A DNA stretch of 41,752 nt from Desulfobulbus propionicus (lineage in GTDB: Bacteria > Desulfobacterota > Dissulfuribacteria > Dissulfuribacterales > DYOW01): positions 1 through 41,752 of the forward strand of contig DYOW01000010.1 of NCBI GenBank assembly GCA_020720325.1, written 5' to 3'. Positions 1,440 to 3,869 of the stretch are shown here, piece after piece (the first letter of the stretch is position 1; each line of letters begins with the position of its first letter). The position numbers and the translations under genes are program-made. Below the pieces are notes generated by a model, which was not told the origin of the DNA, made no database searches, and saw nothing but the letters and a program-made list of their open reading frames with translations.

Positions 1440-2501
1440 TTATATGTTATAAAAACCTTCAGACATTTTCTTAATGTACCAATTCACAGTCTTTTGAATG
1501 CCTGTCTTAAAGGTCTCAAGTGGCTCAAAACCCAGTTCATTTTTGATTTTAGAGTTATCAATAGCATATCTTCTGTCATGACCAAGCCTGTCTTTGACAT
1601 AACTTATTAAACTTTCAGCCTTTTTGCCTTTTGCCATAGGTGAATCAGGAAATATCTGACGCAACTGTTTATCAGTGTCAAAAATCCCATCCATTAATGA
1701 GCAAATAAGTTTGACAATATCAATATTTTTCCATTCATTACACCCGCCAACATTATAAAACTCCCCTCTTTTGCCCTTCTGGATAATTAAATCAATAGCC
1801 AGACAATGGTCTTCAACATAGAGCCAGTCCCTGACATTTAAGCCGTCTCCATAAACAGGAAGCGCAATGCCTTTTAAAACATTAATTATCATTAAAGGAA
1901 TAAGCTTTTCAGGAAACTGGTATGAACCATAGTTATTTGAACAATTACTAACAGTTATGGGAAGATTATATGTCTTGTTATATGCCCTCACAAGGTGGTC
2001 CGCCGCAGCCTTGCTTGCGGAATACGGCGAATTAGGCCTATATTGGTTGGTTTCCTTAAAGGGTGGTTCATCCGGTTTTAACGAGCCGTAAACCTCATCG
2101 GTTGATATATGATGAAATAATTTGCCTTGCATATCACCTTTTTCCCAGACTTCAAGGCTTGCCTTTAATAGATTATGCGTCCCTGTTATATTTGAGCGGA
2201 TAAATTCATCAGGACCTGTTATGGAGCGGTCAACATGGCTTTCCGCTGCAAAATGTACAATTATATCAATCTGTCTTTCAGTTAATATTTTTTTAATTAA
2301 TTCATAATCGCAGATGTCGCCTTTAATAAAATTTAATTTTTTATTATCTTTTGACTCATCAAGGTTTTTTAATGAGCCTGCGTATGTTAAGGCGTCAAGA
2401 ACAATCACATTATCATCTTTATGATTTTTAAGCCAATAATGTGTAAAATTCGAGCCAATAAATCCTGCGCCGCCAGTGATTAAAATATTTTTTTCCTGCA
2501 T
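1440..2501 (-). CDS. rmlB: dTDP-glucose 4,6-dehydratase
   Basis: RmlB (RfbB) converts dTDP-glucose to dTDP-4-keto-6-deoxyglucose, the second step of dTDP-L-rhamnose synthesis. It is an extended SDR protein of 353 residues, the usual length. The NAD-binding GGAGFIGSN is at about 10-18, the catalytic T134-D135-E136 lies in HISTDEVYG, and the YxxxK pair is Y160/K164 in YSASKAAAD. It is separated from the other rhamnose genes by a 471-base gap that holds a foreign-looking plus-strand relic and a promoter-like sequence. It is therefore probably transcribed on its own while serving the same pathway. Confidence 0.96.
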   Translation of the reverse strand: MQEKNILITGGAGFIGSNFTHYWLKNHKDDNVIVLDALTYAGSLKNLDESKDNKKLNFIKGDICDYELIKKILTERQIDIIVHFAAESHVDRSITGPDEFIRSNITGTHNLLKASLEVWEKGDMQGKLFHHISTDEVYGSLKPDEPPFKETNQYRPNSPYSASKAAADHLVRAYNKTYNLPITVSNCSNNYGSYQFPEKLIPLMIINVLKGIALPVYGDGLNVRDWLYVEDHCLAIDLIIQKGKRGEFYNVGGCNEWKNIDIVKLICSLMDGIFDTDKQLRQIFPDSPMAKGKKAESLISYVKDRLGHDRRYAIDNSKIKNELGFEPLETFKTGIQKTVNWYIKKMSEGFYNI

Positions 2502-2558
2502 GTTTTTTTATAAATTTGAATTTTTTATTTTTAAAATTTTTTTATTTTATAATAATCT

Positions 2559-2587
2559 ATAATACAAATTAATTATTAAAACCGCAA
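2559..2587 (-). promoter_or_regulatory. Sigma70-like promoter for rmlB
   Basis: On the minus strand TTGCGG (complement of 2582-2587) and TATTAT (complement of 2559-2564) are separated by exactly 17 bases. They lie 58 bases upstream of the rmlB ATG. The -35 box is imperfect, so this is a prediction from spacing and -10 quality. It suggests rmlB can be expressed independently of rmlD/C/A. Confidence 0.5.
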
Positions 2588-2617
2588 TGACTTACATCAG
2601 AATTTAATTCTAAATGA

Positions 2618-2956
2618 ATTTGTAACTTTCCTCGTTCCCAAGCTCCAGTTAAGGAAAAATTTCCAAAATTCTTATTAAAATATATACTTGACTCACAAAA
2701 CTGTGATGGAGGATTTGGTTTTAAGCCAAACACAACTTCGTTTGTTGAAAATGCCTATTTTGCTGTAAAAATACTTGAAAATTATGCTAATTTACAACCA
2801 AACAACTGCCAATCACTGCAATCATTTTTAATATCCTGTAAAAGAAAGGACAGTGGTTTTTCAAGGACATCAGGGGGTTCTTCATTTCTCGAATCAACAT
2901 ATTACAGTCTTTATGTCTTAAATTATATTAATTCTGTTCAAAGCAAAAACAATTGA
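2618..2956 (+). pseudogene. Relic of a prenyltransferase/squalene-cyclase-repeat protein
   Basis: This open frame of 112 codons has no ATG, GTG or TTG start and is bounded upstream by a TGA. It reads as two consecutive prenyltransferase/terpene-cyclase-type repeats. The first contains LDSQNCDGGFGF followed by SFVENAYFAVKILENY. The second contains LISCKRKDSGFSR followed by FLESTYYSLYVLNYI. Repeats of this kind (Q/C-x-x-DGGFG then a helix with TYYS/A) occur in protein prenyltransferase beta subunits and squalene-hopene cyclases, which have many more copies. I therefore read it as the surviving 3' end of a 5'-deleted gene, lying opposite and between rmlB and rmlD. A short expressed protein with a non-canonical start is possible but less likely. 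Confidence 0.6.
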
Positions 2957-2972
2957 CAAACTACAGGTCATT

Positions 2973-3869
2973 TCATTTAACTTCCTTCAAAACATCTATA
3001 ATATGGCGCACACCTTCCCTCCATTCTTTCTGATAAATTCCAAAGGTTTCCCAGATCAAGCTGCAATCCATAGAGCTGTTTTGAGGTCTTTTTGCGGGGG
3101 TTGGGAAAAATGTTGATGGCACAGGGATAAGTTCCGGGGCTTTTTCCAGAAATCCCCATTTTAAGCCTTCTTCAACAATAATTTTTGTAAAATTATACCT
3201 TGTGACAGTGGGTAAACCGCAATAGTGATATAATCCCCATTTTAAGGTTTCTTCCTTAAAATATTTTTTTAAAAGAAATGCAATTGCCCCGCATATGTGA
3301 GACACATAAGTGGGAGAACCTATCTGGTCATCAACAATATTTAATTTGTCTTTTGTTTTTGCCCAGTTTAATGCTGATTTAACATAATTTTTCCCGTATT
3401 TACCAAATACCCAGCTTATTCTTAATATTAAATAATCATTCATATTTTCTTTAACTGCAATTTCCCCTTCATACTTGCTTTTTGCATATTCACCTATAGG
3501 GTTTGGCTCATCGGATTCATGATAAGGTGTGGTTTTGCTGCCATCAAAGACATAATCTGTTGATATATGAATCAGGGAAACATTGTGGGTTTTGCATAAA
3601 ACTGCAAGATTTTCAGGCCCGTCCCTGTTAATCCTGTAAGCCATATCAATATCGGTTTCAGCCCCGTCCACATTGGTATAAGCTGCGGGATTTATGATAA
3701 TTTGAGGTTTGTAGGTTTTTATTGCATGCTTTATTGAATCAAAATCAGTTATGTCGAGCTGACTTCTTGACAAACCAACAGCATTAAAACCACAACGGTT
3801 AAGATATGCTGTTAACTCGTATCCAACCTGACCCGAAGCTCCGGTTATCAATATGTTCTCTGGTTTCAT
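2973..3869 (-). CDS. rmlD: dTDP-4-dehydrorhamnose reductase
   Basis: RmlD (RfbD) carries out the last step to dTDP-L-rhamnose, an NAD(P)H-dependent reduction of the 4-keto group. The protein has 298 residues. The N-terminal nucleotide-binding motif is ITGASGQVGYEL (about 8-19), the STDYVFDG segment is near 100, and the catalytic YxxxK is in YAKSKYEGE near 130. It starts with ATG 7 bases after the rmlC stop, so rmlC and rmlD are one transcription unit. Its stop lies just beyond the prenyltransferase relic. Identification is secure. Confidence 0.95.
   Translation of the reverse strand: MKPENILITGASGQVGYELTAYLNRCGFNAVGLSRSQLDITDFDSIKHAIKTYKPQIIINPAAYTNVDGAETDIDMAYRINRDGPENLAVLCKTHNVSLIHISTDYVFDGSKTTPYHESDEPNPIGEYAKSKYEGEIAVKENMNDYLILRISWVFGKYGKNYVKSALNWAKTKDKLNIVDDQIGSPTYVSHICGAIAFLLKKYFKEETLKWGLYHYCGLPTVTRYNFTKIIVEEGLKWGFLEKAPELIPVPSTFFPTPAKRPQNSSMDCSLIWETFGIYQKEWREGVRHIIDVLKEVK

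Follow-up and report, generated by a model that had tools for sequence, protein, structure and literature searches.

A start-less prenyltransferase-like frame between rmlD and rmlB, the probable remnant of a bacterial alpha/alpha-toroid gene

The window analyzed here, a 41,752-nucleotide stretch of a contig assigned to Desulfobulbus propionicus, contains a block of rhamnose (rml) genes, and between two of these genes lies an open reading frame that runs in the opposite direction and has no start codon. This raises the question of whether the frame is a short protein in use or the leftover of a longer gene. The frame has homology to an intact family while its start and a part of the gene are missing, and we consider it very probable that the frame is a dead gene remnant, corresponding to the last third of the coding sequence of an alpha/alpha-toroid protein of ~270 amino acids. 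The features are collected in Table 1.

Table 1. Features of the rmlD-rmlB interval and its flanking genes, in window coordinates
Feature	Position	Strand	Basis or remark
rmlB (dTDP-glucose 4,6-dehydratase), full open frame	1440..2501	-	matched in 24/29 other rmlD loci
Enlarged rmlD-rmlB interval with the probable relic, 471 bp	2502..2972		gaps in relatives -4 to 230 bp (7 loci)
Start-less open frame, 112 codons	2618..2956	+	no in-frame ATG/GTG/TTG
Left half of 26-bp palindromic dispersed repeat, at 5' end of frame	2632..2648	+	16-bp half exact at 2633-2648
C-terminal third of PF00432 alpha/alpha-toroid gene	2651..2944	+	profile A1 E 3.6e-26; PF00432 E 4.6e-7
Stop codon near end point of intact relatives (native C-terminus)	2954..2956	+	alignment with 29 relatives
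rmlD (dTDP-4-dehydrorhamnose reductase), full open frame	2973..3869	-	stop 16 bp from end of start-less frame

Extent of the frame and its family match

The frame is preceded by a TGA codon at 2615-2617 and closes with another TGA, and the absence of ATG, GTG and TTG codons in frame bears out the first-pass annotation, which had described it as start-less and had recognized repeats of the prenyltransferase type in its translation. A translated search with the frame returned the Pfam Prenyltrans family PF00432 at 30 bits, above the curated cut-off of 26.5, so the lack of any match to prenyltransferase repeat models, which had been named beforehand as the outcome that would overturn this reading, was not what was found; in the genome scan with PF00432, the fragment scores 27.3. 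Profile A1, built from 23 full-length relatives, scores the fragment at 92.9 bits with a match covering model positions 166-262 of 264, and this is the sole place in the window's genome that it matches (E-value calculated for the genome). In addition, a PDB sequence search with the fragment placed Rab geranylgeranyltransferase (RabGGTase) beta subunits at the top (E 6.5e-6). Judged from these comparisons of sequence, the similarity of the fragment to the prenyltransferase family lies far beyond chance.

Because the A1 match occupies this end of the model and the frame stops at the native end, the window holds the last third of the gene, ~97 of the 264 model positions and therefore well short of a complete PF00432 toroid. 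The homology starts at 2651, and the frame as originally described stands from there onwards but not in its first 11 codons (2618-2650), which are outside the toroid domain and contain half of a dispersed palindromic repeat. A search with PF00432 and A1 across the contigs of the window's genome (G000, a draft assembly of 204 contigs that is 97.55% complete) yielded no second match and none of the missing two thirds.

Position in the rml block and the repeat at the 5' border

The genes rmlC and rmlA come after rmlD and are on the minus strand like rmlB and rmlD (all four names are our reading of the sequences), in agreement with the earlier description of a frame antisense to the rml genes that separates rmlB from rmlD/C/A. 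For comparison, the best 29 of 40 rmlD matches in other genomes were used with their fetched flanks. rmlB adjoins rmlD in 24 of these 29 loci, and in the seven that have the rmlD-to-rmlB order of the window the gap measures -4 bp (five loci), 4 bp (one) or 230 bp (one). The fetched flanks contained a toroid-family member at none of the 29 loci, and the full-length homologue between or near rml genes that the first-pass annotation had proposed as a check was accordingly not found there; likewise, no protein clustering with RmlB, RmlC or RmlD was found near toroid family genes in 32 neighbourhoods. These two results identify the fragment as an intruder in the operon, confined to this genome among the loci read, and the term "insertion" used earlier was apt in that the fragment is foreign to the block. 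In two of the 32 neighbourhoods (L044 and L058), a protein clustering with the window's RmlA lies ~3-4 kb from the toroid gene.

No terminators were predicted in the 2400-3100 region, where seven promoter-like sites were counted against 3.4 expected, a number not usable as evidence, and no RNA families were matched in the window. The gap between lpxC and rmlB contains, at 1252-1379, a small MITE-like element in which 76 bp are enclosed by 26-nt inverted repeats of 88% complementarity; it is present as a single copy in the window's genome.

The 16-bp repeat half at the 5' end of the frame, searched with up to two mismatches, recurs across the genome at 11 distinct places, that of the window included (14 matches over both strands), and the reversed control pattern gave 0 matches in the same search. 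Nine of these places carry the 26-bp palindrome in nearly complete form (up to three mismatches), and across the order the palindrome is present in 6 of 46 genomes. Past position 2648, its right half is not significant in the window (169 of 2000 shuffled sequences score at least as high), and the toroid-family match begins directly past the repeat half. Since the left border of the frame coincides with the half palindrome, a break or joining most likely fell at the repeat, a placement read from position, and this suggests that the dispersed repeat marks the breakpoint of such an event.

Being multi-copy and palindromic, the border repeat resembles REP and MITE-like repeats. A REP-associated Y1 transposase is typical of REP, and the window's genome differs in this respect, with no PF01797 match to a REP-type Y1 transposase at E 0.001. 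Paired inverted copies of the palindrome ~170-200 bp apart are seen on two contigs (L019/L020, C85:939-1128; L023/L024, C78:3948-4146), and the similar DNA that surrounds both pairs suggests a larger composite repeat. No match to the half-sequence was found in the literature; PMC2759123 has small repeats as its subject.

Constraint, age and competing readings

In a leave-one-out comparison over the shared stretch, the fragment scored 87.5 bits and 29 relatives scored 107.8-145.0, making it the lowest of the 30, and it has changed 5 of 19 near-invariant columns, compared with 4 of 20 in the next worst relative. This test was run without L049 (cut by a contig end), L064 (in two pieces), and L033 and L034. 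The latter two, whose contigs equal G031:C68 and G016:C54 in length, were for that reason excluded from the neighbourhood set as well. First-position G+C is 0.327 in the fragment and 0.425-0.525 in eight neighbouring genes, and its total G+C, at 0.297, lies between the values of the same genes (0.357-0.405) and those of two intergenic stretches (0.13-0.22). The low score, the changed columns and the composition are signs of relaxed constraint. Synonymous codon use (0.115) falls within the 5-95% range of a composition-only null (-0.06 to 0.15) and is uninformative either way. The poorest score of the family, the low first-position G+C, the missing start and the unusual location support the reading of a dead remnant, as do the patchy distribution of the family (at E 1e-6, 18 of 45 other members of the order lack a match) and the split copies in two relatives.

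Divergence was set against that of LpxC in 17 genomes with both loci. The LpxC of the window's genome is the most divergent of the 17 (mean identity 0.461; others 0.518-0.581), which indicates that most of the divergence of the fragment is divergence of the lineage; relative to LpxC, the identity gap of the fragment (-0.115) is the largest of the 17, followed by -0.095 and -0.094. In a rough neutral simulation with 10% indels, the share of frames still intact was 43% at 5 events, falling to 7% at 15 and 0.7% at 30. The absence of a stop from 112 codons of A+T-rich DNA thus leaves two options, a young truncation or some force that maintains the frame. A young truncation within a divergent lineage is the simplest account of its age, and the "old" insertion proposed in the first-pass annotation does not fit a frame with neither stop nor frameshift and only a small excess of divergence over LpxC.

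Under the dead-remnant reading, a toroid gene would have lost its start and first two thirds, and its tail would have ended up antisense between rmlD and rmlB, with a break or joining at the dispersed palindromic repeat. On the time scale of the lineage the loss would be a recent one, with the native end and the frame intact, and the composition would have begun to shift towards that of A+T-rich intergenic DNA. The remnant would yield no protein of its own, its sole likely present effect being a longer rmlD-rmlB spacer. The order of these events admits two versions. In one, an intact gene would have stood between rmlD and rmlB and had its 5' two thirds deleted at or near the repeat, and the kept native 3' end and the lack of a copy elsewhere are what would be expected for the one copy of the genome; however, the family adjoins rmlB or rmlD in no sampled relative, and a full gene opposing the direction of the operon would have been in an odd resting place. 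We rate this in-place truncation as a real possibility, somewhat short of an even chance, the other version being the arrival of a piece that was already truncated. Of the insertion followed by 5' deletion proposed earlier, the foreign, 5'-truncated piece is upheld; the proposed order of events is one of two that would leave the same trace, the other being insertion of a pre-truncated piece.

It is unlikely that the frame encodes a live short protein of ~90-112 amino acids, initiated at a non-standard start (ATT at 2618 or ATA at 2684) and acting as a mini-toroid or as part of a complex. The open frame, the 14 of 19 near-invariant columns that are retained and a divergence barely above the LpxC expectation would suit such a protein, but standard start codons are absent, the 5' codons are repeat DNA, first-position G+C is lower than in all eight neighbours, and about one third of the fold is present, whereas the other strong matches in the 297 genomes of the phylum are near full length save for a frameshifted copy in one genome (G089). 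For these reasons, and with no short homologue found, the "unrecognised short protein" offered as the second option in the first-pass annotation is disfavoured. A live one-third toroid with a non-canonical start and a 5' end taken from a dispersed palindrome would amount to a new protein derived from a truncated enzyme gene, which we regard as highly improbable. Equally improbable is an assembly artefact, in which a contig of the 204-contig draft was mis-joined at the dispersed palindrome that sits at the junction while the organism carries the complete gene at another place, given that rmlB and rmlD-rmlC-rmlA are co-oriented across the fragment in an order shared by seven related loci, the N-terminal part is on no contig, and the repeat half measures only 16-17 bp.

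The intact family and its nearest known structures

As a relic, the fragment is an ordinary sort of genomic debris and matters little as such: one lineage would have lost a toroid gene and kept its tail, which suggests that this lineage, at least, manages without an intact toroid protein. Of more interest than the relic is the intact family to which it points, a RabGGTase-beta-like family of ~270 amino acids present in more than half of the sampled genomes of the order, with no curated equivalog above cut-off among 23 members scanned. At E 0.01, family matches were present in 30 of 60 genomes with the window's own counted, and within the order 28 of 46 genomes matched at E 1e-6 (27 of the 45 others), most of these matches being frames of 250-340 amino acids. 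The family was also found in further orders of the phylum; over the phylum as a whole, 34 of 297 genomes, again including the window's own, matched at E 1e-15. All 23 full-length relatives scanned match PF00432 at E 0.001, and none of the 23 reached an NCBIfam curated equivalog cut-off in a scan for which the full table was read for the first member and counts for the rest.

In the phylum search, one other short frame, in G089, had a match confined to the C-terminal third. It was ruled out as a short homologue, being part of a full-length gene broken by a frameshift, with the N-terminal part in a second frame (split copy at L140:2749-3596); this genome also has an intact family copy on a different contig, and the split copy is either a paralogue that has undergone a frameshift or the result of a sequencing error. 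Four further genomes in that search (G057, G177, G244 and G251) have weak partial matches, in frames of 300-847 amino acids. The family gene of G041 (L064:5752-6593) is likewise split, into two overlapping frames of 185 and 131 amino acids.

Across the family neighbourhoods examined (one locus, L057, yielded no separate family ORF), there was no common gene neighbour that would indicate the job of the toroid family. In family f10, the toroid gene often comes after malQ-, dnaK- and grpE-like genes, named from a reading of their N-termini, and other families differ. Two genomes from different families have a similar membrane transporter-like protein encoded downstream of their toroid gene (L038:1326-2567 and L140:4093-5283). 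No match to the toroid family was found in viral contigs, plasmids or phages as mobile carriers, and the literature on bacterial prenyltransferase-beta homologues contained, judged by title, nothing on this family.

The AlphaFold model of an intact relative (L031:4461-5246, from the eight-row alignment A2) is helical and confident, with a pLDDT of 86.4 and a pTM of 0.86, and its nearest solved structures are RabGGTase beta subunits (such as 3c72_B and 1dce_B; Z 22.8, rmsd 2.6, 239 of 261 residues aligned), with a best Foldseek E of 3.2e-6. On this model, which is of the full-length relative and not of the fragment, the relative is predicted to share the fold of protein prenyltransferase beta subunits. 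RabGGTase beta is the closest solved fold to the modelled relative and also what the fragment matches best by sequence in the PDB; its identity to L031 is 14%. At the positions of the zinc ligands of protein prenyltransferase beta subunits (Asp, Cys and His), the bacterial profile has Y, E and A, as read by eye in one sequence alignment, not a structural one, of the profile to 6o60_B (domain 4). With the ligands missing at the aligned positions, the family is not called a protein prenyltransferase.

Squalene-hopene and oxidosqualene cyclases share the repeat type and give weak model matches, but the family consists of a single toroid of ~270 amino acids, compared with cyclase models of 622-634 positions. 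All scores fall far short of the curated cut-offs: the fragment scores 11.2 bits against the squalene-hopene cyclase NCBIfam cut-off of 322.7, and the full-length relative L031 scores 18.3 bits against 322.7 and 21.9 against 851 with the cyclase models. With respect to PF00432 itself, the fragment scores above the curated cut-off but retains about one third of the domain and has no start codon.
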